From a virus: a stretch of 23,787 nucleotides of DNA. Shown here in pieces: positions 1-13,429 of the stretch. Below the pieces are notes generated by a model. The model was not told the origin of the DNA, made no database searches, and was given only the letters and a program-made list of their open reading frames with translations. The position numbers and the translations under genes are program-made. The stretch lies in the IMG/VR virus record IMGVR_UViG_3300037961_000502, positions 1 to 23,787 of that record. One strand, 5' to 3'. How positions within the stretch are numbered: position 1 is the first letter of the stretch; each line of letters starts with the position of its first letter.

Positions 1-803
1 GCATCCCAGTCTAAGTAGTCGCCCGAAGCGTTTAACGAAAGCTTAGCGGGTGTAACACTACCAGTCCCAAGCTTAGCTTCTGTAACACCGCCATCTTTTA
101 TGGATACTTTGTTGCTTGTATCATCAACCTCAAGAGTGACGTCATCAACTGTTGAGGCAATACTGCTAGAAGCAAGAGTTACAACAGTAATAACCGAACT
201 AGCAGGGGGCGCAGAAGCAAACGTAATGGTGCTTGGCGCACTTATAGCGATTGTGTAAGCGTCTGGGGCTTGCACCGCACCGTCAATAGAGACCAGATAA
301 GCTTCTGGGGTCTCTGTTGCAGGTGTAAACGTCAAGTTAAACGCTGTAGTTGTGCCGTCACCAGTCAAATCTGTGTGTTTAAAGCTCGCTATATTAGTCA
401 GAGCGGTGTCTGTTAAGTTCTTTTGTAGCTTAAACTGGAACGTGTTGGCATCCTCGGTCACTTCTTGAGCAACGTAGAGACTCTGCTGATAAGCATTGTC
501 CAAGTCTGTAGCTGTGAGACGTGAGCCATTTTCAAAATCAACAAGCTGAGTGGTGCTTGTGGCACGATAAATACGAAGAGTGTTGTATGAGCCCGCACTA
601 TTCCAACCAGAAGAAAACGTTACCGTTCCTCCTTGGTTGTTAGCGTTAGCTGTAACTTCCGCCGCGCTATCTAAGTTTACGTATGCCAAAGTGCTTTCGT
701 TGAAGCCAAGTACGTGGACGTCTCCCAGTGCTATAAAGCGAAACGGAAACGTAAACGACGTATCTGTCGGGGTGTTTGTGTATTCGAAGTATGAATCTGC
801 CAT
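1..803 (-). CDS. Tail fibre protein, N-terminal part (T7 gp17-like), truncated by the window edge
   Basis: The frame opens at an ATG 12 bases after the gp16-like stop and stays open for 267 codons to the window edge, so the C-terminal receptor-binding part is missing. The first ~125 residues fit the Phage_T7_tail N-terminal family, which attaches the fibre to the tail: MADSYFEYTNTPTDTSFTFP, FPFRFIALGDVHVLGF, then LRIYRATSTTQLVDFENGSR and LTATDLDNAYQQSLYVAQE. The rest is rich in Ser, Thr, Ala and Val, as expected for beta-structured shaft (for example LTGDGTTTAFNLTFTPATET and ISAPSTITFASAPPASSVIT). The leader before the ATG is A-rich (AGAAAAATAAA) with no clear Shine-Dalgarno site. Its position last in the ejection/tail module matches T7 gene 17. 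Family assignment is firm; receptor and host cannot be inferred. Confidence 0.92.
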   Translation of the reverse strand, partial: MADSYFEYTNTPTDTSFTFPFRFIALGDVHVLGFNESTLAYVNLDSAAEVTANANNQGGTVTFSSGWNSAGSYNTLRIYRATSTTQLVDFENGSRLTATDLDNAYQQSLYVAQEVTEDANTFQFKLQKNLTDTALTNIASFKHTDLTGDGTTTAFNLTFTPATETPEAYLVSIDGAVQAPDAYTIAISAPSTITFASAPPASSVITVVTLASSSIASTVDDVTLEVDDTSNKVSIKDGGVTEAKLGTGSVTPAKLSLNASGDYLDWD

Positions 804-815
804 TTTATTTTTCTA

Positions 816-3800
816 TTAAGGTTGTTTGAGATAATCGTATCTTCCTTTGAAGATTTCTTTTTGTGCTTGTTTAAGTTCTGGATACTCTTCAACTAAGTCT
901 CTCAGTGCCGTCGCTCTGTAAGCTCCTATTAACTGACTGACTGCGTTAATTCGTGGGGTTTTGCGTCCGAGTTCGTGCTTCATGCTGTATTCGGGCAACT
1001 TTTTGTATGTGTCACTGGTAACAAGAGCTCTTAGACGTTCCCTAAGAGTCTTTCCTCCTATTTTACGAGTGCTAACAAGCTCTTGAAGTCTGTCATACGC
1101 TTGGCGTCCATCTTGTTCGACGTTCTTTAAGCTTAGTCCGCTTCCCATGAATTTATGAGAAGGCTTGGTGAAACCATGAGCTAGTAGGGCAAGCTCGCGG
1201 TCTACAGGGTCTTTACTTTCTGAGCTAAAGAAGAAGGGGTCTATAAGTCCTCGCACTCCTCCATGTTGCTCCATCTTAATAGGCTCACCAAGAAAGTTAC
1301 GCTTCAACGGCATATTTGAGGCTTCTGCTCCGCTAGGAATACGCTTAAGCATATGGTCAAAGATGTTTCTAGTTTCGTAAAGCTGTCTGCTTTCTTGAAA
1401 GTTCATTGATTGATTAACAATGTTGGGAACTAATCCACCCATCATGCCTCCAATGAAACGCTCACCTCTGTTTTCAGCGTCAAAGATAGCCTTCATAGCT
1501 TTATCTAAACCGTCGAGATAAGATTTACTGAGAATGTTGTTTGAAAGTGAAGTACAGAACAACGAAAACATACGTCCTAACTCATCTGTCTCAAGCTCAT
1601 CGTAAGTCTGAGCGTCTTTGATGTCAGCTATAAGACCAATAGACGTAGCAACGGGGTCAAGTCTCTTATAACTCCACCACTTGTCGCCCACTTTGATTGA
1701 ATAAGGTCTCCACCCTGTCAACTGAAGTGCTTTGTTCTGTTCTAAGTTAGAAGGACCACCGCCAGTGATAACGTCGGGGTTGCTATTCATGTAGTGGAGC
1801 ATCATTGCACCCACGCCTACTGAAGTTGCTATTTTTCCTCGTGCTCTGGCGGCATCCATTGGGTTGTCGCTGTGAACGCCTTTTCTAACTTTATCGGTAA
1901 GCAACGCTTTTGTGTCCACTATAGGCTGAACTAGTCCGAGAGGAGAGCGTTCAATACCTGCGCGGAGGATGTTTGTGGGCGTGTTAAGGAACGGAACAAC
2001 GAAGCGTAGTAAAGGTAGCTGTTGTAAGCCGTAACCAACAACAGAACCAACTTTATTAACAACACCTTCATTACTTCTTGTTGTGAATGTGTTTTCTTTC
2101 GCTTGCGCCATGCTTCGTTCAGCAAGTATTCCCGCGTTTTCATCGAATACGTGGTCTTTCTTATACTGCTTTACGAAATCAGCTTGCGCTGTGCCAAATG
2201 TTAATCCTTGGGCGCGGGCTTGTTCAAAAGCTTCGCGGGTTATAGCGGCTTCCGAGTAAGCGTGACCGCCTTCAGTAATTAAGTCGTTAAACTTAGAGTC
2301 AATATATTTAGCTATGTCGTGACCGTCAGTTAGTCCTTTATTCATTGCTTCTAAAGCAAGCTCAGTCTTAGCATTTGAGCGGTAGGAAAGTTGCTTAAAG
2401 AACTCATCCCCAGTCAAAAGACCACGAGTAGGTAGGCGGACAAAGTGACCAACCATATTAACAGCCTGTCCTATTCCATCCAGTCGGTCAGAGTGAATAG
2501 CGTATGTACGGAATTGGTCGTCATCAAATACACGACTGCCTTCCATCAACATAGAGTCGTCATTCTTAAACGCTTTACCTGCGTATCTTAAGGACTCCCT
2601 TATCATTTCCATGTCAAACGCATACTGGAAAGCCGCTCTTGCTACCTTCCAATTACCTTGGGTTATTCCTCCTATTACGCCCCCACCAACAAGCTCTAAC
2701 TGTCTCATTGTTATGTTAATGACGTTACCCATAATGTTAATTGCTTGGGTTGTAGGACCAGAAAGCAAGGAGTTAATCCAATACTCCATAGTCATTTCCA
2801 TCATCTTGTTGCCTTTAACCTTACGGTTTGTGGCGGCGACAGACTTAACTAGTTCGTCAAAAGCTTCATCCTTTTGCCCTGCGCGGCGTAAAGCGTCGGA
2901 TACGTGTTGCTGACTGTCAGACATGACAAGTAGTCTAACTAACTTGTCCATCTTCATTTGACCAATAACACCCGTCATTCTTTGGTTACGGTATTTGTAG
3001 ACATCTTCTGAGCTTTGGTTGGCAGTGTCGATGCCTATCTTTTTCTTTACGTTAAACCCAAAGCGACCTCCGAGGAGTTTACGTTGCACTAAGTTTAGTC
3101 CTGCATCTTTACCCATCAAAGACCATACGCGCTGTGCTTCTACCATCTGGTCGAGCAACGACATTAACTCAGCCTCTAACACTTGCTTGTCTTTCTTGGC
3201 TATGTTGGCTGTTTGCTTTGCGTGCGCGTCGATTTCTTTTGCTTTGTCTACAGCCATCCGAGCAAACGAACCGATGATTTCTTTAGCGGCGGCTTGGTCA
3301 CTACGGAACTGCTCCATAGCTTCTTGGTTGTTTTTCATCTTTTCGATGTGACGTGACATTGCCGCCGCGTCTCCGCCCAAAATGTCGGCATACTCTTCTG
3401 TAGCTGTATTAAGCTCTTTGGCTGTTACTGGCTTTGTTTTTGTGCCTACTTCATCTAGGTGTGTAGACATTGCCTTCATCAACGCCCAAGCCCCGTTAGT
3501 AGACTTTAAATTCTTACAAGCACTGTGGATTGCTTGTGTACCGCCAGTGATTTTACCATCGCCAAGTTTCATAAACTTAGCTAGTCCGTTGATTTCTTTG
3601 AGAAGCTTTGCTCTTTCTAGGGCGGCATCCTCAAGAATCTCACCAGTAGTTTCTCCTCTAGGTGTTGCAGAATAACGACTTCTAGAGTGCATCCTTGATA
3701 CCTCTGCGGCGGCATCCGCTACGTTTTCAGCCTCGTCAATAGCCCGCTCTGCGTTCATCTTTTTACCAGTAAGAGGGTCGGGAATGTCTTTTAGGTCTAT

Positions 3801-5432
3801 TCTTCGCAGGTCGTTAGTGAACTGCATGACATCATCAAGAACTGATTGTGTGCCTTCGTCCGTCCCTCTGACTAGTGTTTTTGCGGCGTTTTTAAATTGT
3901 TTCCACAATGAACTCTGGTCTATTCCTGCTGTAGCGTTTAGTTCGCGGGCGAAAGCGGTGTTAGTCATCGCCTCGGCAACAAACTCGTGGACAGTGAAAA
4001 GGTTAGCCGCGCTTGCGGGGTCGAGAGCGTGAACAACATCGTCGTTAGCCGCGTTGAGCATCCCTCTGCCTCTGAATACGGCTGTCCTACCTGTTCCTTT
4101 TTCGCGTAGTTTATTCTCTACTTCTCTAAAGGATGGAAAGTCTTTAATATTCTTGTATTCAGCCTTGGTAAGTATGTTGTAAGCTCTGTTGCTTTCAATC
4201 ATTCCAAGGTAATTAGCTACAAGCTTTTGTATTCCTTCTGTCTCTGGCGTTACCTTTTTATTAGCAAATTCTATTAGAGCGTTGTAATACTCTTCGCCCT
4301 TCAATTTTTCTATTCCGCCGAGTGCTTTAGATAACTTTTTAGCTGTAATAGCGTGAATAACTTCGTGAGTAAGAACACGTGAGTTACTTATTGATTTATT
4401 CTGCCTTGGAAGAGTTATAGCGTTGTCGTTGATGTCGTAGTAACCCGCGCTATGGTCGGGGATACGGTCGGTAAGTCTGAAATCTACGGCACTGAGGTCT
4501 TTGCCGTGTACATCTAATAATCTTTTTAAAAGTGGGGTATACCTAGATTCTTCTGAGATGGGGCTAGTTGTAAATGCCCTTACTACAGAAGCGGCGTCTG
4601 TTGTATCGCTACCGCCTCGGAACGCTGTATTAGCAACGGCTTCAAAGTTTTGATTGAACGCCTCTATTTCTATCTCATCTCCTTTAGCAAACGGAGCAGA
4701 GTCATCATAATCAAACTTGTCTTGAATGTCTTTTCTATATTCACCGAGGAGCTTTGTGTAAGTGTCTTTTTCGGTCTCGCCTATCTTAACCATCTTTCTT
4801 TGTTTCTTAATATTCTTAAGACCAAAGAGTAACTCTTTTGCATATGAGGCGGCTTTAAATGCGCTTCCTACTCCTGCTTCTAATAGCAATCCTTCTGCTA
4901 CGTTCTTAAAGCGTCCTTCAATTTCTCCGTCATCTTCATCAGCGGCAAGATACTCGGTAATGGCATTTTCAAAGAAAGGATGAGATTGAACTAGGTTAGA
5001 TAAACGTTCTTCGTTGCCCTCAAAAGATATAAAGTCACTTGCCGCTCCTGCCGCCGCAAACTTAGAGTATTTAGCTACGGTCGGGGCTACTTTAGAGACA
5101 TTGGCTAATCTACCTAGTTTACTTACCTTACCCGCTATTCCGAGAGCAGGGATAAAGCCTGTAGCAAACTGAGTGATACCGTTAGTTAGCTCACCTGCCC
5201 AAGTCTTACTATGTCCTAGTAATCGTTGTTCGTCCCAATCGGGTAGGGTGTCATAAGAAAAATAATCAGCAAGATTATAAACGCTGTGTGCAAAATCTTC
5301 CACACCGCGAGGCACGCCTAAAACGGCATCGGCTATTAAGCTAGGGCTTTCTTGTTCTTCTTCTTCTCCCATAGGGGAGAAAGTGCGTCCTATTGATGTA
5401 ACTGGGGTAGGATTAAATACTTTTGATTTCAT
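816..5432 (-). CDS. Internal virion / DNA ejection protein in the gp16 position, with a metallopeptidase-like HExxH domain
   Basis: This 1538-aa protein fills the T7 gp16 slot between the gp15-like gene and the tail fibre, and is likely packaged in the capsid and ejected with the DNA. The N-terminus contains an acidic patch (EEEEQE, residues 23-28) and Gly/Ala-rich hydrophobic stretches (about 85-130). A zinc-peptidase motif HEVIH lies at 356-360 and is followed by VHEFVAEA, with EFVAE at 483-487, a spacing compatible with a gluzincin whose third ligand is a Glu. T7 gp16 instead has an N-terminal lytic transglycosylase; I see no E...GLMQ-type motif here. The C-terminal half resembles large phage ejection proteins: LLSGPTTQAINIMGN near 885, VVPFLNTPTNILRAGIERSP, and WRPYSIKVGDKWWSY near 1240. 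The ATG overlaps the upstream stop (ATGA), implying translational coupling; AAAGAAAAATAA precedes it. Role as ejection protein is well supported by order; peptidase activity is inferred. Confidence 0.85.
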   Translation of the reverse strand: MKSKVFNPTPVTSIGRTFSPMGEEEEQESPSLIADAVLGVPRGVEDFAHSVYNLADYFSYDTLPDWDEQRLLGHSKTWAGELTNGITQFATGFIPALGIAGKVSKLGRLANVSKVAPTVAKYSKFAAAGAASDFISFEGNEERLSNLVQSHPFFENAITEYLAADEDDGEIEGRFKNVAEGLLLEAGVGSAFKAASYAKELLFGLKNIKKQRKMVKIGETEKDTYTKLLGEYRKDIQDKFDYDDSAPFAKGDEIEIEAFNQNFEAVANTAFRGGSDTTDAASVVRAFTTSPISEESRYTPLLKRLLDVHGKDLSAVDFRLTDRIPDHSAGYYDINDNAITLPRQNKSISNSRVLTHEVIHAITAKKLSKALGGIEKLKGEEYYNALIEFANKKVTPETEGIQKLVANYLGMIESNRAYNILTKAEYKNIKDFPSFREVENKLREKGTGRTAVFRGRGMLNAANDDVVHALDPASAANLFTVHEFVAEAMTNTAFARELNATAGIDQSSLWKQFKNAAKTLVRGTDEGTQSVLDDVMQFTNDLRRIDLKDIPDPLTGKKMNAERAIDEAENVADAAAEVSRMHSRSRYSATPRGETTGEILEDAALERAKLLKEINGLAKFMKLGDGKITGGTQAIHSACKNLKSTNGAWALMKAMSTHLDEVGTKTKPVTAKELNTATEEYADILGGDAAAMSRHIEKMKNNQEAMEQFRSDQAAAKEIIGSFARMAVDKAKEIDAHAKQTANIAKKDKQVLEAELMSLLDQMVEAQRVWSLMGKDAGLNLVQRKLLGGRFGFNVKKKIGIDTANQSSEDVYKYRNQRMTGVIGQMKMDKLVRLLVMSDSQQHVSDALRRAGQKDEAFDELVKSVAATNRKVKGNKMMEMTMEYWINSLLSGPTTQAINIMGNVINITMRQLELVGGGVIGGITQGNWKVARAAFQYAFDMEMIRESLRYAGKAFKNDDSMLMEGSRVFDDDQFRTYAIHSDRLDGIGQAVNMVGHFVRLPTRGLLTGDEFFKQLSYRSNAKTELALEAMNKGLTDGHDIAKYIDSKFNDLITEGGHAYSEAAITREAFEQARAQGLTFGTAQADFVKQYKKDHVFDENAGILAERSMAQAKENTFTTRSNEGVVNKVGSVVGYGLQQLPLLRFVVPFLNTPTNILRAGIERSPLGLVQPIVDTKALLTDKVRKGVHSDNPMDAARARGKIATSVGVGAMMLHYMNSNPDVITGGGPSNLEQNKALQLTGWRPYSIKVGDKWWSYKRLDPVATSIGLIADIKDAQTYDELETDELGRMFSLFCTSLSNNILSKSYLDGLDKAMKAIFDAENRGERFIGGMMGGLVPNIVNQSMNFQESRQLYETRNIFDHMLKRIPSGAEASNMPLKRNFLGEPIKMEQHGGVRGLIDPFFFSSESKDPVDRELALLAHGFTKPSHKFMGSGLSLKNVEQDGRQAYDRLQELVSTRKIGGKTLRERLRALVTSDTYKKLPEYSMKHELGRKTPRINAVSQLIGAYRATALRDLVEEYPELKQAQKEIFKGRYDYLKQP

Positions 5433-8400
5433 TTATTTTTCTTTTTGTATTCTATTGCGGCTTTAATTTGTTTAACAACACGTCTGATGTTACTTGGCTG
5501 TCTCTTCCAAGCGTTTTGCTCCTTTGCGGTCATACTAGCTAGGTTTACTTCATCCCTTGCATTAGCCATTCGAAGCTCTTTGTTCATCATTGAGTCAAAC
5601 TTATCTTTGGATATTTTATGCAATATTTCTTTTTCGTTCTTAGGAACGCCAACAAACTTACTAGCCCAATCTTTGTTAGATTTTATGACGCCCGTATCGC
5701 CTACGGGTATATTCTCCTGTGGAGTACCCATGCTTATTAGCTCATTATCTCTGTCTTCCCTCCGTTTACCTGCAATAAGGGTCGTAGTGGCATCCCCAGT
5801 TTCCCGCGAGGCGGCTCGTGTGACATCTTGGTTAGCTTGCTTTACGCTCGTATCGTTATAGTCCGCTTTGACAACACGTCTATTTGGGTAAGTGATGATG
5901 TTGTCATCTGCTTCAGAAAACGCCTCCATCATTTTTTGTCCTTCAAGCTTAAGTTTTTCGGCTTTTGCTCTGAAGTTTGCTTCTTCTCTTTGCTGAGCTT
6001 TAGCTTCGCGTTGTTTTGTAGGACTTATGGATGTTGCCTTGTCTGCGGCGGTTCTCTCACGGGTAATAACTTCGCTACCATCTAAGGTGCTCTTGTGTTT
6101 AAACACACCGTTACCGTGATTAACGTATCCTGCTTTCTCTAGCTTAGCGATGAGCTTCTCGTGTCCATCCATTTGCTTCTGCCAGAAGTCTTGAAGCTTG
6201 TCTTTGCCTTCTTCTCTGGCTTTGTTTCGTTTGGTTGTCCAAGCTTTTCGACTGCTGATTGGGTCGGTAACAACGCGAGCAACTCTTCTCTTAATTACTG
6301 CGTTAATTTCCTTTGCACTTCCTTGATAAATATTATCAAAGAAAATACCTACTCCGTCTTCTGGTTCATATTTACCTACGTTAGTAACAGACTGGAACTT
6401 ATCGTATATCTTGGAGATGTTACCCATAGCTCGCTTCGTCTTTTGAGCGGGCATACCTACAAGTTTATTGACGTTTTCAAAAGCTTCTGTAAGAGGACCA
6501 AACTTCGGACTCATGATAGTAGACTTACTCCAGTTGATAGAGCTAATGTCTATTGTGTTGTCAAACGAAGTAGCCTTTGCAGTTCCGTCCGCAATTGCTT
6601 GCGCTTCTTTGTAGGTCTTAGCGTCTGTATTTATGTGTCTAAAGTTAAATATAAGCGTGTCGTTTTGTTTATTTGTAGCACGATTGAACCACTCTTGGCT
6701 TAAACCTGTGGTTTTTCTCCACCGTGTTACCTGTGCGTCCGTAAAGCCCTTTCCGCCTTTAACAAACTCTGTCTTAGTCTTTTGAAGCCATATAGATTCG
6801 CCAGTAGGGTTGCCCTCGTAGTCTCTGATGTCAAACTTAACCACGCGCCCGTTTTGGACTTTGTGAAGAGCTTGTCTAAACCCGTCCTGTGGTCTGAACC
6901 CTTTGTTCATAGGAATAGCTGTAACTTGACCGTTCAAAATGTTTTGAAGCGTGCTACGATTATATCCCTTTTCGGTGAGGTAGCCTTCCTTGCTTATATC
7001 GGTGTGCGATATTGAGCCTCTTATTTCTACTGTTTCACCCATTCCTTTGACGGAATACCTGTCGCTTGTCCTGCCGCTTTCGTCAAACTTTTTGCCGTAG
7101 TCAGGGTCTCTGTTGTATTCTATATCCCTTGCGTCACCTGTGCTTGACTGCGATGTTTTTGATTTCATCTCAGCCATTTCATCCATCGTCTTCTTAATTG
7201 AAGCTTCTTGTGCTTCCAATTCCTTCACTCTGTCTGGAAAGTTTGCACGAACCTCCGCTTCTGTCATTCCTGCTCTCTGCGCTAGCGTCTGGACGGCTGT
7301 AGGCTCGGCGGTTTTTACAGGTCGAGAACCTTGTATAAACAAGTCTACGCCTTGCTCTGAGGGCTTTGGCTTTGGCTTGGGCTGTGCGGCTTTCTTAATC
7401 GGACTGCCGCTTTTTCTGAAAGCAACAAACTCCGCTAAAGCTTCAGCGTGGTTAGGTGATTTACGATTATAATAAAGAAGAGTCTTATTATTTAAAACTC
7501 CTGCATCTACTTGTTCTAATATCCACTCACGTTGTTTCGGGCGGACATCTTGAAAGTCAGTACCCGCTAACCACTTCTTGTAGTTATTCACTGCTTCTTG
7601 AACTGTGTCTACTCTTATAGCGGAGCTATTAAACTGTTTGAGGTGGCTAAATGGGTTTCCGTAGTGCTCATCGGTGTTTAACTTGCGATGTACGTCAATT
7701 CCTTTGCCATCTGCCTCCATCCTCTGCGCTCCAACTATGCTTTTGGAGTGTTTAACCGTCGGCTTAAATTCTGAAGTTATACTTTTTAAATCAAGTTCAC
7801 CCACGTTTATTGGTTCTTGGGGTGTTTTAGGCTTGTAGTTAAACCCTTCTACTGGGATTAAATCACCAGTATTTTCAGAAGAACTACCAGTTTTTGCTCT
7901 ACGGGCTGTCTCGTTACTAATGGCGTTAGCTGTATCTACCGCTCTAGCAAAAGTTGCGTTGGTCTTATCCAGTGTGCCTCTGTTCGCTTTAATAAAAGCC
8001 ATTGCCGCGCTCTTGAGGAAAGAAAGTTGGTCTTCTGACAGTTCGCTAATCTTTTCTCCTTTTATTTCGAAGTCGGGGCTCTTAGGGTCTTTTGCCTTTA
8101 GCTTAAAGTTAAAACCCTCTACTGGGATGGGGTCTTGTTTAGGCTTGAAGTTAAATCCTTCTACTGGAATTATTTCTGGCTCTGGGGTGTTTTTAGGTAT
8201 TCCTGCGGCATCTTGGGCTTCCTGTATCCTTACAATCTGGTCGGCTTTAGCTTCCATCTCAAGATATAAATCGCGGTCACCAGTCCTAAACCTATACTCT
8301 TCACCTGTAGCTTTACGGTATAACTTGTTAGCTACATCTTGACGTGCAAAGATAAACTCAGCGGTTTCTTTGGGTTTTGAATCTAGGTCTATACGCCATC

Positions 8401-11400
8401 CTCCCTTTTCCCATTTATACCCATCTACTTTTTTAGGGAGACCTCCACGCATAAACCAACCTTCGATTCTTTCAAAAAGGCTTTCTTTGTCGCCTGTTTC
8501 AACCTCATCAATTACCTCATCAATATCTTTTTTCGGAGTAGGTGCGTCGGGCTTTGGCTTGTCGGGCTTTGGTGCGCCACCACCATCGGGAGGTGGAGGA
8601 GGAGGAGGGGTGTCATCTCCGTCTGGCTTTGGACCGTCACCGTCTGGCTTTGCAGTAGGCTCTAGGTCAATGTGCCTGTCGTTTTTATTGATGCCCTTAA
8701 ATCTGTTGTAACCTTTTTGGTAATCTTGAAGTCTTTGCGCAAATTCGTTGCGTTTATCTAGGGTGTCTAAACTTTCGTAGTGCTTCTCAATTATTTGGGA
8801 TAAATCTTGACGTGACTTACCTTGACGGAACGCCTCATCCATAAGCGGTATATCTATTCCCTCTTTTCTCATTTGTCTGCTAAGAGACTCATAAGCTTCC
8901 TCTAGGAGTGGGTTAACGCGCTTATCTCCATTGAGCACTTGCCTAACTACGTTAGTCTCGCGTGCGCTTAATTCTTCTAGTTCTAGGAGTTTGTTTTGTC
9001 GCGCTAGGTCTGCATCAAATTGACCGATAAACTTCTTTTGGTCATTGACGGTCATTTTGTTAAATTCGTCAAAGACCTTTTTTCTATAATTTTTATAATT
9101 TAAAAAGTTACCTGCATTGTCTATTCGGCTGATGTTAAACGCCGCGCCCATTTCTATAATAAAAGCATCGTTAAACGCGGCAGAGCCTTGACCACCAAAC
9201 AAGTATAGCTCAGCGGTCTCTCTGCGTATCCCCTTGTCGTTCATCATGCCGTCGTTAATGAGTTCCATGACTCGTTTACGGTCGGCGGGGAGTAAGTTTT
9301 CTGGGTCAACACCAAACTCTCTTAAGGTGTCTATGTCATAACGACGTGCCAATACTCCGAGTTCTGGGACTGTTAAATCTTCTAAATTAAAATTACCTCT
9401 TTTGTTTAGTCTTCCTATTCCAATTAGAGCTTCTCTTTCCGCTTTTGTGAACTTACCGTTAAGAAGCATTTCTGCTACTTCTGGACCAGACTTACCCATC
9501 ACCTTTGCTCTTAAGCCCGCATACCCATAAAACTTTTTACTGGTTAACGTTAGGGCGGTAACTCCACCAAAGAAGGCACTGGCTACTTTACCCATGCCCT
9601 CTACGTCTTGTGATTCAGCAATTTGCTCTCCTGCCGCCGCGCCCACTGCAACCATTGCTTCGGTTCTAAAGTCTTTTCCTGCGCGTTTTTGCCACCAAGC
9701 TAGTGCGTCGTCCGTTGTTTTAAGACCTATTTTACTTATTGCTTTTGTTGCCCAACGCCCGCCGCCGCTTGCCACTTCTGTACCGTATCTTAGTACTTTT
9801 TCAGTGATGTAGGGGGCGTCGTCCAAACGAGGGTCGGTGAGGTCTACGCCAAACACGTTGTCAGTTATGACGTTCAAACCTTTTTCAAGAGCGTCACGAC
9901 GGGCTTGCACGCCTTTGTTTATTTGTTCTTCTCTTGTAGGCAGGGGATTACCGTCTTTGTCTACCGCACCTTCTGGGGTTTGTATTCCGCCGCCTGTCTC
10001 TGAAATTAGCTTATCAAAGAAAGCAACTATGTCTAAAAATCCCTGTGAAGGTTGACCTATGAAAGCGTCCGCGTTCCCCAGTCTAGCTCGTTTACCAAAC
10101 TGGAAGTTATAGGCTTCCATCGACATGATTTTTCCAACTTCATCAACGAGTTGGTCAGCTTCTTCTCCGCCTACATTTTCTATTTCTGTTTTAATCAGAG
10201 TTTTATAAATCTTTTCTTCTTGGGGAAGGTGACCCGTGCCGTTATAGCCTCCGTCTTTGGCGGTTTCTTCTCTATTGTCTAAGAGCTTATCGTGTATTTG
10301 CCCTAGGCTCATATTCGCGCCAAGAGGCACGTTGTCGTTACCATAAATCTCTCTAGCAACGTCCATGAGGTATTCGTCCTCTCCCATTGTTTTTTCAAAA
10401 TCAATGTCTGGATGAAGGACAAACTGACGTCCTGCTAAAACATCTTGTAAAAGAAAGTCTCGCGTTGGGAGTTCTGGGATTACAACGCCGTTGTGCTCAT
10501 ATAATCCTTCTTCATTGGGAACGAGTAGATTTGAGGGAACTCCAACATTTTCAAATCTTCGCTTGAGTTTAGCGTTTATTACATCGGCTTCATCTGAACT
10601 AAGAGGGACAAGAGTTCTGCCCTTTCCTGCGCTCTTACCCCTAGTCAACGAAATAATATCTTTAACTAATTCCTCTCCCGCTTTGTTTTTATAAACATGA
10701 GCACCGTAATAATTATTGGCTTCGATTATGCTTTCGTCGTCTGCCTGTCCCGCAATGTTAGCGTCAAACGCTTCTATATCCTCCAAAGCTTTCGCTGACT
10801 GGTCTTTATTGGGATTTAGCTCTCTAGGAAGCCCTACTCTGTTTGTGCCTTTTTGAGTTGGAGAGGGTATTGGGTTGTATTCTTTAGGCACTGAGCCTAA
10901 TCTAGCTTTTTGTAGCTCTGCAAATTTAGCATCAAAACGCGACTCTCCTCCTTGGAGATAAGCGTCTTTAAGTAATTTTTCTTCAGTCTCATCTGGGTCA
11001 AAGTCTTTTATTACTTGCTGAATTTTTGCGTCTCCGCCATAAGCGTTTGAAGCCTCTTCCATCATTTTCCCGTAAAGAAGTTTGGGAAACTTTTCTTTCA
11101 TGAATACAGGCATACCCTCACGCGCCCACATAGTTCCAATTTCTTGAGCCGTTGGAATAGGCTCGCCTTCTGCGCGTGGTTGTGATAGTTTTTCTCTAAT
11201 AAACGCGTTGAGGTCTTCCTGCATAATTGCGCGTATCTCTCCAGTTTTGAGAGCAAACGAGCCTGTAGGCGTGTAATGAGGGACATCCTCGCCCGTAGTC
11301 GAGTTTATCTTCATACGAGTGGTAAAATAATTACTAAAATCTAGTCCATTCTCTGAGGACATTGTGTCTATGACGCTGGGCTCAAACTGGGCTTCTAAAG

Positions 11401-12814
11401 TCTCTGAAGTGGCAGTCAAAGCGGCATTAGTTGCTTGTTCTATCTGGGATTTTAATTGTCTGTCTTCGGCATCCTTTTTTTGTTCTGCTAGCCGTGCTTC
11501 TCTTTCTTCTTTCTCTTCAATGCTTGTTGCACGCTGTAAATCGGCATATTCAATATTTGCACGAGTAGCAAACAAACCCTTAGCTATTCTTAGCTTTTGA
11601 GGGTCATCCTTATACATCTCCTCAAGCTTGTCATTAGTTTCGTCAACGAATCCCGATAAGCCTCTAGGGTCTGTGCCTATGTTGGGGTTTGTGTAGGCGT
11701 CTGCGTCCTCGTCAAACTTATTTAAAAGTTCTTCTACTTCGCTTTGTACCGCTACTTTTGCGTCGTATTCGTCTTGTTCTTGTTTTTCTCGTCCAAGCTG
11801 TTCGATGGTAGCAAGCAACTGTAGGTATGCAGGGTCGTCCGCTTTAAGCTTGCGGTTGCCGTATTGTAAGCCTCCTACAAGTGCTTCTGCGGCGGCTACT
11901 GCGGTAAGATTATCAAAGACAACTTTATTGTTAATTTCCTTGTAAAAGTGTTTGGGAAGACCTTTAAGAACCTCGTCTGTTTCTGCTTTTGTCCAAGTGC
12001 TAGACATATCGAAGCTTTTCTGCAAAGCTTGAGTTATTAGGGTAGACTTACCCACCATATCAGGCATGAACAGCACGTCAGATACGCTTTGACCGAACAT
12101 CCCTTGAGCGGTGGTTTTTATAATGCCATCTAACTGACTCGGAAAACTTTCGATAAGGTTTTCTTGAGCTTGCATCAAGCCCTCTATAACACCCGCTTGT
12201 CTGTTAACATTTGACAATACGTCGCCTTTTTCGGCTAGAAAACGAGCGTTAAAGTCCGCGTTAATCTGGCGTATTTGGTCAGCGTTTAAAGTCCCCGTTC
12301 CTTTACCAATTCCATAGCTGTCTATAATAGCTTGGTTCTTTTTATTCTTTACGGGATTTCCAGACGCTACCCTGCCAAAGTCTTCGTAGAGTTCATTCAG
12401 CATATCAGCGGCTTCTGGAATATACGCCGCGCCTTGTGACTTCTCTATAGCGTTACGAGCAATAGGGTTGAGACCAAAGATTCCCAACTTGCGATAATAA
12501 TCGTCTAGTGTTTGCTTATTTTCTGCGTGCTTGCGCTTCTGCTCATCTGTAAGTTGATTATATGTAACTATTTGGTTCTCAGCTTCTTGAGTGTAACCAC
12601 GAGCGATGTTTTGGACGCTTTCAGATGCAAACTTACCCAAAGAATTAGCTAGTTCTGTCCATTGTTTAGCTTCGACGTTGTAAGGCTCAACGTAGTTGTT
12701 TCCTGCTCCACCTGCTACTTCTGTAGCTCTTAGTTGAGCTTTAGGTAGGGGACGAGGTATTACTTGCCCTTCGGCTTGTCCGAGGATGTTTTGAAGTTCT
12801 TTTCTTGTACTCAT
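5429..12814 (-). CDS. Giant internal virion / DNA ejection protein in the gp15 position (2461 aa)
   Basis: The gene follows the gp14-like gene by 3 bases and overlaps the gp16-like gene by 4. At 2461 aa it is more than three times T7 gp15 (747 aa). Residues 1 to about 950 are mostly helical and resemble gp15-type internal core protein, with a charged coiled-coil-like stretch near 430-455. A Gly/Ala-rich, possibly membrane-active segment lies near 1050-1100 (MVAVGAAAGEQIAE). A Pro/Asp/Lys hinge with seven consecutive prolines covers 1389-1429. The motif IPVEGFN(F/Y)K occurs at 1549, 1563 and 1653. A globular domain with GNPF at 1719-1722, a W-containing middle and HAEALAEFVAF at its end (about 1690-1798) resembles DUF4326-like domains. 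A Pro/Lys linker (PKPKPKP) follows; the rest, to the basic C-terminus (KAAIEYKKKNK), is unrecognised. A Shine-Dalgarno site GAGGGG lies 9 bases before the ATG. Ejection role rests on order and the N-terminus; extension functions are unknown. Confidence 0.85.
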   Translation of the reverse strand: MSTRKELQNILGQAEGQVIPRPLPKAQLRATEVAGGAGNNYVEPYNVEAKQWTELANSLGKFASESVQNIARGYTQEAENQIVTYNQLTDEQKRKHAENKQTLDDYYRKLGIFGLNPIARNAIEKSQGAAYIPEAADMLNELYEDFGRVASGNPVKNKKNQAIIDSYGIGKGTGTLNADQIRQINADFNARFLAEKGDVLSNVNRQAGVIEGLMQAQENLIESFPSQLDGIIKTTAQGMFGQSVSDVLFMPDMVGKSTLITQALQKSFDMSSTWTKAETDEVLKGLPKHFYKEINNKVVFDNLTAVAAAEALVGGLQYGNRKLKADDPAYLQLLATIEQLGREKQEQDEYDAKVAVQSEVEELLNKFDEDADAYTNPNIGTDPRGLSGFVDETNDKLEEMYKDDPQKLRIAKGLFATRANIEYADLQRATSIEEKEEREARLAEQKKDAEDRQLKSQIEQATNAALTATSETLEAQFEPSVIDTMSSENGLDFSNYFTTRMKINSTTGEDVPHYTPTGSFALKTGEIRAIMQEDLNAFIREKLSQPRAEGEPIPTAQEIGTMWAREGMPVFMKEKFPKLLYGKMMEEASNAYGGDAKIQQVIKDFDPDETEEKLLKDAYLQGGESRFDAKFAELQKARLGSVPKEYNPIPSPTQKGTNRVGLPRELNPNKDQSAKALEDIEAFDANIAGQADDESIIEANNYYGAHVYKNKAGEELVKDIISLTRGKSAGKGRTLVPLSSDEADVINAKLKRRFENVGVPSNLLVPNEEGLYEHNGVVIPELPTRDFLLQDVLAGRQFVLHPDIDFEKTMGEDEYLMDVAREIYGNDNVPLGANMSLGQIHDKLLDNREETAKDGGYNGTGHLPQEEKIYKTLIKTEIENVGGEEADQLVDEVGKIMSMEAYNFQFGKRARLGNADAFIGQPSQGFLDIVAFFDKLISETGGGIQTPEGAVDKDGNPLPTREEQINKGVQARRDALEKGLNVITDNVFGVDLTDPRLDDAPYITEKVLRYGTEVASGGGRWATKAISKIGLKTTDDALAWWQKRAGKDFRTEAMVAVGAAAGEQIAESQDVEGMGKVASAFFGGVTALTLTSKKFYGYAGLRAKVMGKSGPEVAEMLLNGKFTKAEREALIGIGRLNKRGNFNLEDLTVPELGVLARRYDIDTLREFGVDPENLLPADRKRVMELINDGMMNDKGIRRETAELYLFGGQGSAAFNDAFIIEMGAAFNISRIDNAGNFLNYKNYRKKVFDEFNKMTVNDQKKFIGQFDADLARQNKLLELEELSARETNVVRQVLNGDKRVNPLLEEAYESLSRQMRKEGIDIPLMDEAFRQGKSRQDLSQIIEKHYESLDTLDKRNEFAQRLQDYQKGYNRFKGINKNDRHIDLEPTAKPDGDGPKPDGDDTPPPPPPPDGGGAPKPDKPKPDAPTPKKDIDEVIDEVETGDKESLFERIEGWFMRGGLPKKVDGYKWEKGGWRIDLDSKPKETAEFIFARQDVANKLYRKATGEEYRFRTGDRDLYLEMEAKADQIVRIQEAQDAAGIPKNTPEPEIIPVEGFNFKPKQDPIPVEGFNFKLKAKDPKSPDFEIKGEKISELSEDQLSFLKSAAMAFIKANRGTLDKTNATFARAVDTANAISNETARRAKTGSSSENTGDLIPVEGFNYKPKTPQEPINVGELDLKSITSEFKPTVKHSKSIVGAQRMEADGKGIDVHRKLNTDEHYGNPFSHLKQFNSSAIRVDTVQEAVNNYKKWLAGTDFQDVRPKQREWILEQVDAGVLNNKTLLYYNRKSPNHAEALAEFVAFRKSGSPIKKAAQPKPKPKPSEQGVDLFIQGSRPVKTAEPTAVQTLAQRAGMTEAEVRANFPDRVKELEAQEASIKKTMDEMAEMKSKTSQSSTGDARDIEYNRDPDYGKKFDESGRTSDRYSVKGMGETVEIRGSISHTDISKEGYLTEKGYNRSTLQNILNGQVTAIPMNKGFRPQDGFRQALHKVQNGRVVKFDIRDYEGNPTGESIWLQKTKTEFVKGGKGFTDAQVTRWRKTTGLSQEWFNRATNKQNDTLIFNFRHINTDAKTYKEAQAIADGTAKATSFDNTIDISSINWSKSTIMSPKFGPLTEAFENVNKLVGMPAQKTKRAMGNISKIYDKFQSVTNVGKYEPEDGVGIFFDNIYQGSAKEINAVIKRRVARVVTDPISSRKAWTTKRNKAREEGKDKLQDFWQKQMDGHEKLIAKLEKAGYVNHGNGVFKHKSTLDGSEVITRERTAADKATSISPTKQREAKAQQREEANFRAKAEKLKLEGQKMMEAFSEADDNIITYPNRRVVKADYNDTSVKQANQDVTRAASRETGDATTTLIAGKRREDRDNELISMGTPQENIPVGDTGVIKSNKDWASKFVGVPKNEKEILHKISKDKFDSMMNKELRMANARDEVNLASMTAKEQNAWKRQPSNIRRVVKQIKAAIEYKKKNK
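7826..8170 (-). repeat. Three copies of an IPVEGFN(F/Y)K motif inside the gp15-position protein
   Basis: The peptide IPVEGFNFKPK is encoded at residues 1549-1559, as IPVEGFNFKLK at 1563-1573, and as IPVEGFNYKPK at 1653-1663. The DNA copies differ mainly at third positions, so the peptide rather than the DNA appears to be conserved. The copies sit in low-complexity linker between a helical segment and the GNPF domain. Short repeated linear motifs in a linker suggest docking sites, processing sites or register repeats; the sequence alone does not decide which. Confidence 0.85.
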
Positions 12815-12817
12815 AGT

Positions 12818-13429
12818 TTAATACCCCTCATCGGCGGGGGGTGAGGGCGGTGTTAAAGCACCTATTTGCAATTCGTTTCGAACGTTGGTTTGGTATTGGG
12901 AGTAAATGCCTGTAGCAGTGTTTGCTAAGCCAAGAAGAGTTGCCCCGTAGTTAGGCTGAGCGATAGGTTTGTTAATGTTTCCAACTTCATTAGAGAACGC
13001 CATTGCTTGTTGTTCTAATCCAAAGTCGCGAGATATATTGCCAAACTGAGCTTGTCTTACTAAGCCAAAAGCGGTGTCTCCTTCTTGTCGGGTGTAGTCA
13101 GCAAGCATGGCATTTACGCTTACGCCGCTTTTGTTGTTTTCAATCGCACTGGTAGCGGCGGTAGCACGAGCGGCTTCGGCTCTTTTAGTGTTTTCAACTA
13201 ACTGTTGTGTTAAGACTTCGTTTTCCATGCCTTGCTTAACACGCGAAGCTGTGATGTCTGCTAAGTGTTTTTGACGGGCTCGCTCTGTTGCGGCGGCTTG
13301 AGCCTGTCTTTGAGCTTTGGCGGCTACTTGTTGCCCCCGAATGGAGAGCATAGCAGACCCAATCGCCGTAATAGCAGAGGTAGCCGCACCCACTTGGGCG
13401 GCGGTAAATCCTGCAATTGCTACACACAT
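12818..13429 (-). CDS. Internal virion protein, gp14-like
   Basis: The protein has 203 aa, close to T7 gp14 (196 aa), and lies between the gp13-like and gp15-like genes, exactly as in T7. The N-terminus is Ala/Gly-rich and hydrophobic (AGFTAAQVGAATSAITAIGS, residues 6-25), followed by a long Ala/Gln/Arg-rich helix (RGQQVAAKAQRQAQAAATER). This fits the known family: gp14 is ejected from the T7 head and forms the outer-membrane pore of the ejection channel. The C-terminus is Pro-rich (TPPSPPADEGY). The start ATG follows an A/T-only leader (AAATAAAATAAT) with no visible Shine-Dalgarno site. The assignment rests on size, composition and strict synteny. Confidence 0.85.
   Translation of the reverse strand: MCVAIAGFTAAQVGAATSAITAIGSAMLSIRGQQVAAKAQRQAQAAATERARQKHLADITASRVKQGMENEVLTQQLVENTKRAEAARATAATSAIENNKSGVSVNAMLADYTRQEGDTAFGLVRQAQFGNISRDFGLEQQAMAFSNEVGNINKPIAQPNYGATLLGLANTATGIYSQYQTNVRNELQIGALTPPSPPADEGY
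12825..12847 (-). promoter_or_regulatory. Short hairpin whose 3' arm holds the ribosome binding site of the gp15-position gene
   Basis: On the minus-strand RNA, CCCTCA (12847-12842) can pair with TGAGGG (12830-12825) across an 11-base, C-rich loop. The Shine-Dalgarno candidate GAGGGG (12829-12824) overlaps the 3' arm and sits 9 bases before the ATG at 12814. The hairpin covers the last gp14-like codons, so ribosomes finishing that gene would open it. There is no U-tract, so it is not a terminator. The pairing is seen in the sequence; the coupling role is inferred, and a 6-bp stem is modest. Confidence 0.4.

Follow-up and report, generated by a model that had tools for sequence, protein, structure and literature searches.

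The locus described here raises the question of whether the machinery by which a T7-like phage brings its DNA into the cell carries a zinc peptidase and, if so, whether such an enzyme stands in for the cleavage of glycan strands. The gp16 protein of T7 bears an N-terminal lytic transglycosylase, with which it crosses the peptidoglycan. For the protein at the corresponding position of the present phage, the first-pass annotation had pointed out an HExxH motif followed at a distance by EFxxE, as in gluzincin peptidases, and, seeing no transglycosylase in this protein or in its giant neighbor, had proposed that proteolysis might take the place of glycan cleavage during DNA entry.

The ejection cassette and the motif in its gp16-position protein

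The window, i.e., the whole stretch of 23,787 bases of a virus record that was analyzed, bears a T7-type structural cassette on its minus strand (Table 1). The connector, a tail protein (PHROG 446), the genes at the gp13, gp14 and gp16 positions and a tail fibre gene were recognized by family matches (Pfam, PHROGs), and the remaining genes of the cassette are named by position alone. The gene order is that of a T7-type ejection cassette: the genes at the gp14, gp15 and gp16 positions come first and the tail fibre gene after them. Among named phages, the connector gene is closest to that of the uncultured Ayaqvirus S45C18 (64.5% identity). In turn, the gp16-position protein matches 71 named phage records, mostly Pelagibacter, Roseobacter and cyanobacterial podophages, and many of the 40 listed are annotated as internal virion protein D; its hydropathy presents a single weak peak, at residue 1131. 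Its N-terminal module is matched by one IMG/VR relative (L017) at 50% over residues 19-213. The giant gp15-position protein resembles its counterpart in another relative (L070) at 25% over residues 1-254 (blastp, E 1.9e-8), and beyond these N-terminal ~250 residues no relatives were found among named phages or in IMG/VR. Whole-protein IMG/VR scans with either of the two window ejection proteins (P0001, P0002) returned nothing useful.

Table 1. Features of the window discussed in the text, with the evidence for each.
Feature	Position	Strand	Evidence
gp16-position ejection (internal virion) protein, 1538 aa	816..5432	-	ORF; PHROG 6651 'internal virion protein', E 3.6e-57
N-terminal conserved module, residues ~20-245	4698..5375	-	alignment to complete relatives; conserved columns
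Zincin-type metallopeptidase domain (almost certain), residues ~275-535	3828..4610	-	domain profile (which includes the window's own domain), AlphaFold2 model, fold matches to zincins and podophage internal core proteins
HEVIH, residues 356-360: two candidate zinc ligands and predicted catalytic glutamate	4353..4367	-	sequence, alignment
E483, candidate third zinc ligand	3984..3986	-	E-F pair invariant in 14 aligned domains, not selected for it
C-terminal conserved module, residues ~640-1538	819..3515	-	alignment to relatives
gp15-position protein, 2461 aa	5429..12814	-	N-terminal ~250 aa resemble a relative's gp15-position protein
gp14-position internal virion protein	12818..13429	-	Pfam T7_gp14, E 1.9e-13
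Tail fibre N-terminal part, cut by window edge; marks T7-like gene order	3..803	-	Pfam Phage_T7_tail, E 5.2e-10

Translation bears out both motifs, HEVIH at residues 356-360 (the codon of H356 starts at 4367) and EFVAEA from residue 483 (codon at 3986), the former being the sole HExxH across both window ejection proteins. An HExxH arises in 3.2% of 5000 composition shuffles of the gp16-position protein, and an HExxH with EFxxE 15-140 residues downstream in 0.08% of 5000. Taken alone, the motif is suggestive.

It is the relatives that settle the reality of the domain. A scan of IMG/VR with the conserved C-terminal module gave 331 relatives, the best 80 of which were used; 79 of these were translated, L088 being left out without a usable frame. 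Within this set, an HExxH lies upstream of the C-terminal module in 35 of the 79 and, among the relatives complete at the 5' end, in 21 of 48, against 0.22 of 48 predicted by shuffling, which rules out a chance motif; the other 27 of these 48 lack it. Two classes are found among the 79 loci, one similar to the window (17/79) and another with HELWHSLSRY and DEYFAEEMTD (18/79), which responds weakly to the profile of the window class (domain E-values about 2e-4 to 3e-2). The named relatives align to residues ~60-245 and to the C-terminal part (from ~610-930 on); HExxH is absent from all seven full-length ones examined, and none was found when it was looked for in the N-terminal part of the Ayaqvirus gp16-position protein. 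With the domain alone, a distant blastn search gave no result, tblastn against named phages returned nothing at E up to 1, and the Pfam matches, SprT-like (0.072) and DUF6782 (0.11), both fell below cut-offs.

Predicted fold and candidate zinc ligands

An AlphaFold2 model covering residues 271-581 has a mean pLDDT of 66 and a pTM of 0.68, with values of about 87 in the two helices bearing the candidate ligands and below 50 in much of the 122-residue insert between H360 and E483. In model numbering, a helix (29-44) is followed by three strands (47-51, 61-63 and 68-72), then by helix 80-101, so that the helix carrying the HExxH (86-90, i.e., H356-H360) follows a three-stranded sheet and its preceding helix, and E483 (213) lies on a later, C-terminal helix (211-220). 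Foldseek gave no match of this model in the PDB at E <= 0.001. In a second look with VIA-align, zincins rank at the top, at Z values below 8, which can reflect a common arrangement: lethal factor with its metallopeptidase domain (Z 6.8 over 150 residues, rmsd 4.2), the C1 region of the N4 virion RNA polymerase (vRNAP) gp50 (Z 6.3, 180 residues, rmsd 4.5) and next SPRTN, PprI/IrrE and PPEP-2, with the aminopeptidases ERAP2 and IRAP at Z 4-5 and many rows within 1-2 units, without a clear preference for gluzincins over other zincins. Among predicted viral structures (BFVD) there are six matches at E <= 0.001, from the internal core protein of Ralstonia phage RSB3 (1.8e-5, the best) to the internal protein D of Bordetella phage BB8 (8.6e-4, the sixth), followed by a phiKMV-like core protein (Ab05, 1337 aa) at 3.7e-3. 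For the C-terminal module, a profile search against the PDB returned nothing useful, its AlphaFold2 model had no Foldseek match in the PDB at E <= 0.001, and the best VIA value in the second look was Z 4.5.

Fourteen domains of the window class, every one picked for its HExxH, were aligned; the near-duplicates L014, L075, L076, L083 and L084 and the 18 loci of the HELWH class were left out. H356, E357, H360, E483, F484 and L498 are invariant in this alignment and, given how the domains were chosen, E483, F484 and L498 alone constitute an independent conservation result. The first-pass annotation had left the choice of the third ligand between E483 and E487. The former is kept in 14 of 14 domains and in its equivalent in LUZ19 gp37 (ELVAWG), whereas several have M, A, G, H or W at the position of the latter, and therefore E483, and not E487, is the candidate ligand. 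Accordingly with the alignment, H356, E357, H360 and E483 would form the predicted site of the metallopeptidase domain. The spacing from H360 to E483 ranges from 52 to 122 residues across the 14 domains, the window being the longest, and seven residues before the glutamate, where 13 of the 14 have a tyrosine, the window protein has an alanine. When the HExxH columns are masked, the profile continues to detect the domain, and HExxH is kept in every complete window-class copy found, the match in L072 being cut at a contig end; this test leans toward retention, because the profile was trained on HExxH copies. As to the conservation of the site residues in close homologues, on which the first-pass annotation had made its reading depend, loss of single residues was not seen, while several homologues are devoid of the whole domain.

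Altogether, the sequences of relatives and the predicted fold support the proposal that the gp16-position protein contains a zinc-metallopeptidase domain whose glutamate ligand lies far from the HExxH in the sequence: residues ~275-535 are almost certainly a zincin-type domain (a predicted zinc endopeptidase) of the kind found in polyvalent proteins of phages and plasmids. Like the polyvalent zincin-like MPTases (Iyer et al., 2017; PMC5512222), it has an HExxH helix, a glutamate on a later helix and a long variable insert between them, it lies in the middle of a very large phage protein, and in its family it has an ART-PolyVal domain as a neighbor. The passages of that paper on these MPTases take their examples from N4 vRNAP, P1 DdrB and conjugative proteins, without mention of T7-type gp16-position proteins. 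The N4 C1 region (PDB 9pnt, 9pnr), whose HExxH is noted in the text of its authors (PMC12633501), aligns over 180-181 residues and also belongs to an ejected protein. Unlike N4 vRNAP, the window protein has no RNA polymerase module detected by Pfam or PHROGs, and identity over the aligned region is 18-19%.

A variable slot and the same domain in annotated ejection proteins

The zincin sits between the conserved N- and C-terminal modules, in a variable slot. In one relative (L043) it is accompanied by ART-PolyVal at residues 318-454 (1.5e-10), and in another (L056) there are two zincins; the slot of L013 contains DUF7831 (4.5e-35) and a deoxyribosyltransferase/DprA-like segment, and those of L024 and L070 contain SAP domains. 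Such a variable slot fits the polyvalent-protein idea as presented by Iyer et al. (2017; PMC5512222). Roughly half of the complete relatives have no HExxH in this slot, and the zincin would therefore be an accessory, outside the core entry machine.

PDB sequence searches with single proteins gave no credible match. The 14-domain profile, in turn, matches four PDB sequences: 9sfn_G, an internal virion protein of 1337 aa (E 1.7e-12), 8vb2_A, gp48 (E 1.4e-6), 23sg_S, gp10 (E 4.8e-6), and 11fw_A, a virion RNA polymerase (E 7.2e-5). Neither 8vb2 nor 9sfn is among the matches listed in the Foldseek or VIA-align searches of the PDB. LUZ19 gp37 and several other phiKMV-group proteins match the 9sfn stretch at 100% identity. 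The motif is HEAVH at 423 in LUZ19 gp37, HELIH at 420 in Vibrio FE11, HEMLH at 673 in Xanthomonas phage GF1 and HEISH at 577 in the gp16-position protein of Bordetella BB8, whose N-terminus we take to be lysozyme-like. Residues 415-562 of LUZ19 gp37 also match a virion RNA polymerase family (PHROG 2206, 6.8e-17). The 8vb2 entry corresponds to the PhiM1 ejectosome (PMC11440229); PhiM1 is matched through the stretch after the HExxH, and HEAAH is nonetheless present at 385.

LUZ19 gp37 (9sfn_G) and the tetrameric ejection protein of PhiM1 (8vb2) thus share with the window protein the gene position and, by profile, the same zincin. They differ in their N- and C-terminal backbones, which gave no hmmsearch match and, by hhalign, a best E of 0.01 at a probability of 4%, so that orthology with the phiKMV gp37 backbone is not shown. 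As no homology is detected between the backbone of the marine family and that of phiKMV gp37, either the module moved between backbones or these diverged beyond recognition.

Many of these proteins bear GenBank/RefSeq names such as 'internal virion protein with endolysin domain' or 'peptidoglycan lytic exotransglycosylase'. In the endolysin-named PHROG 342, the matches of LUZ19, PhiM1 and FE11 begin only at profile positions 168, 192 and 189, respectively, while the GF1 match begins at position 7, in a region where this protein also has matches of its own to transglycosylases. We infer that the endolysin label was carried over from proteins possessing the N-terminal enzyme. In the PhiM1 study, residues 268-528 were assigned to an endolysin/exotransglycosidase-like domain through BLASTP and DALI, and the terms 'HExxH' and 'metallo' are absent from the main text (PMC11440229). 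This label looks wrong, because the segment holds the HEAAH and the match to the zincin profile; judging from these two features, it would be a zincin. Our searches of open-licence papers found none linking podophage internal virion or ejection proteins to a metalloprotease, a metallopeptidase or HExxH; among the papers listed in a broader search was the N4 study (PMC12633501) noted above.

Possible roles at the start of infection

The window protein resembles T7 gp16 in gene position and in a probable role in DNA entry, and differs from it in that its zincin lies mid-protein and that an N-terminal transglycosylase is not detected (Pfam, PHROGs). The absence remarked on in the first-pass annotation holds for both ejection proteins at E up to 1 in Pfam and up to 0.1 in PHROGs: these sequence searches, of limited sensitivity, detected neither lysozyme nor transglycosylase. 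It weighs little, because Pfam also finds nothing in LUZ19 gp36, whose lysozyme motif is found by PHROGs. Moreover, local phmmer searches with the lysozyme parts of LUZ19 and PhiM1 and with the GF1 transglycosylase recovered their own sources only (among 41 and 72 entries), so that a lysozyme in the window proteins could well escape searches of this kind. Among 31 gp15-position proteins (window, LUZ19, 23 from IMG/VR and six from named marine and other phages), those of relatives being taken by position only, as the ORF ending beside the gp16-position start, Pfam finds a lysozyme in one, L018 (residues 951-1070), a phage without zincin that, as a single case, provides no test. No lysozyme or transglycosylase match (Pfam, E <= 0.01) occurs in 30 gp16-position proteins (window, 26 IMG/VR relatives, LUZ19, HTVC011P and ProddE).

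The proposal that proteolysis takes the place of glycan cleavage is left unsupported by the phages in which both activities are predicted. GF1 presents, in a single chain, a predicted transglycosylase (PHROG 13449, residues 49-226) and the zincin (609-827); in the phiKMV group, as in LUZ19, and in PhiM1, the zincin of the gp16-position protein coexists with a lysozyme motif in the gp15-position partner (for PhiM1, PMC11440229). On these grounds replacement is rejected, and the zincin does not appear to substitute for peptidoglycan hydrolysis but to add to it.

The best explanation, in which our confidence is evenly balanced, is that of an accessory zincin, housed in the variable slot and delivered to the host, which cuts a protein, most likely of the host, in addition to the hydrolysis of peptidoglycan. 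Packaging and injection of this large multi-module protein are suggested by its gene position and family annotation. From gene order and the same annotation, the two conserved modules flanking the slot would probably form the ejection channel, and the zincin would travel with the ejection protein into the host envelope or cytoplasm; there, binding zinc through H356, H360 and E483, it may use E357 to cut, as infection begins, a substrate that is most likely a protein of the host.

The main rival, which we consider rather unlikely, is that of a processing protease acting on its own chain or on a partner among the ejection proteins, e.g., that of 2461 residues, before packaging or after ejection, thus releasing or activating domains. 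Processing was proposed for such domains by Iyer et al. (2017; PMC5512222), where that of P1 DdrB is cited; furthermore, the length of the neighboring gp15-position protein stands against 505-1085 residues in the 30 others compared, and in L043 and L013 the domains beside the zincin could in principle be released. Nevertheless, the same source describes N4 vRNAP as packaged unprocessed, the window slot has no other recognized cargo to release, and more than half of the complete relatives do without the motif. This last point, together with the fact that the slot takes an ADP-ribosyltransferase, leads us to prefer an accessory enzyme with host proteins as its targets to a processing step at the core of entry.

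An endopeptidase for the peptide crosslinks of peptidoglycan, replacing the missing transglycosylase, seems improbable. The lack of a detected glycan-cleaving enzyme in either window ejection protein and the partly periplasmic location of T7 gp16, as described in PMC8954989, would agree with it, but the former is weakened by the LUZ19 gp36 case, the top fold matches are protein-cutting zincins, and GF1, LUZ19 and PhiM1 are predicted to combine both kinds of enzyme. Equally slight are the prospects of a zincin fold retained as a structural element or for guiding DNA within the packaged ejectosome, with no need for peptidase activity. It would be in line with the DNA density reported in a PhiM1 groove formed partly by the zincin domain (PMC11440229), with the statement in PMC5512222 that N4 encapsidation needs the region of its zincin, and with the loss of the near-invariant tyrosine in the window protein; such a role would not, however, require the HExxH and the distant glutamate, which are kept in very diverged copies (LUZ19, PhiM1, FE11, GF1).

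Returning to the accessory enzyme directed at host proteins, a broader view, to which we give slightly less than even confidence, is that the cargo slot of T7-type ejection proteins is interchangeable and delivers, with the DNA, effector enzymes such as zinc proteases and an ADP-ribosyltransferase, and that the delivered protease has been mislabeled as endolysin or exotransglycosylase in the phiKMV group and PhiM1. This would correct a functional label that is spreading in databases, since gp37-like proteins so named carry a zinc-protease fold, which occupies the very region that one cryo-EM paper gave to peptidoglycan cleavage. It would also offer, in LUZ19 and other phages that can be cultured, a concrete and testable case of enzyme delivery by the machinery of DNA ejection.

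The gp15-position protein of the window

At 2461 aa, the gp15-position protein stands against a span of 505-1085 aa among the 30 compared counterparts (LUZ19, 23 from IMG/VR and six from named marine and other phages). The counterpart in the IMG/VR relative L070 resembles only its first ~250 residues, beyond which no relative was found in the phages and IMG/VR records searched. Within the protein there is a weak likeness to DUF4326 (E 0.0027, under the curated cut-off), and the short motif PVEGFN(F/Y)K occurs three times.

Coordinates of the features in the window, and of the proteins that bear them in its IMG/VR relatives (L0xx)
Feature	Coordinates	Strand	Residues
gp15-position protein, 2461 aa	window 5429-12814	-	
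DUF4326 likeness	window 7505-7711	-	~1702-1770
PVEGFN(F/Y)K	within window 5429-12814	-	1550, 1564, 1654
Phage_lysozyme, gp15-position protein	L018:21-3278		951-1070
Second HExxH class, example	L028:4625-9100		
SAP domain	L070:6700-11181		
Two zincins	L056:2909-8323		HESTH 453, HEILH 746
ART-PolyVal, zincin	L043:6127-11052		318-454, HELLH 587
Zincin, DUF7831	L013:5035-11121		

Other domains in the ejection proteins of relatives

The variable slot that holds the predicted zinc-metallopeptidase (zincin) in the window's gp16-position protein is filled in 18 loci, between L026 and L066, by a second HExxH class (HELWHSLSRY ... DEYFAEEMTD), whose profile kinship with the window class is weak only. 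In L070 a SAP domain (1.6e-7) lies at the slot position, together with a stretch that weakly resembles a methyltransferase. The gp15-position protein of L018 ends in a Phage_lysozyme domain, and HExxH is absent from its gp16-position partner.

Zincin-bearing relatives with additional domains

Among gp16-position relatives, one bears two window-class zincin domains, another has ART-PolyVal ahead of the zincin, and in a third the zincin is followed by DUF7831 (4.5e-35) and a deoxyribosyltransferase/DprA-like segment.
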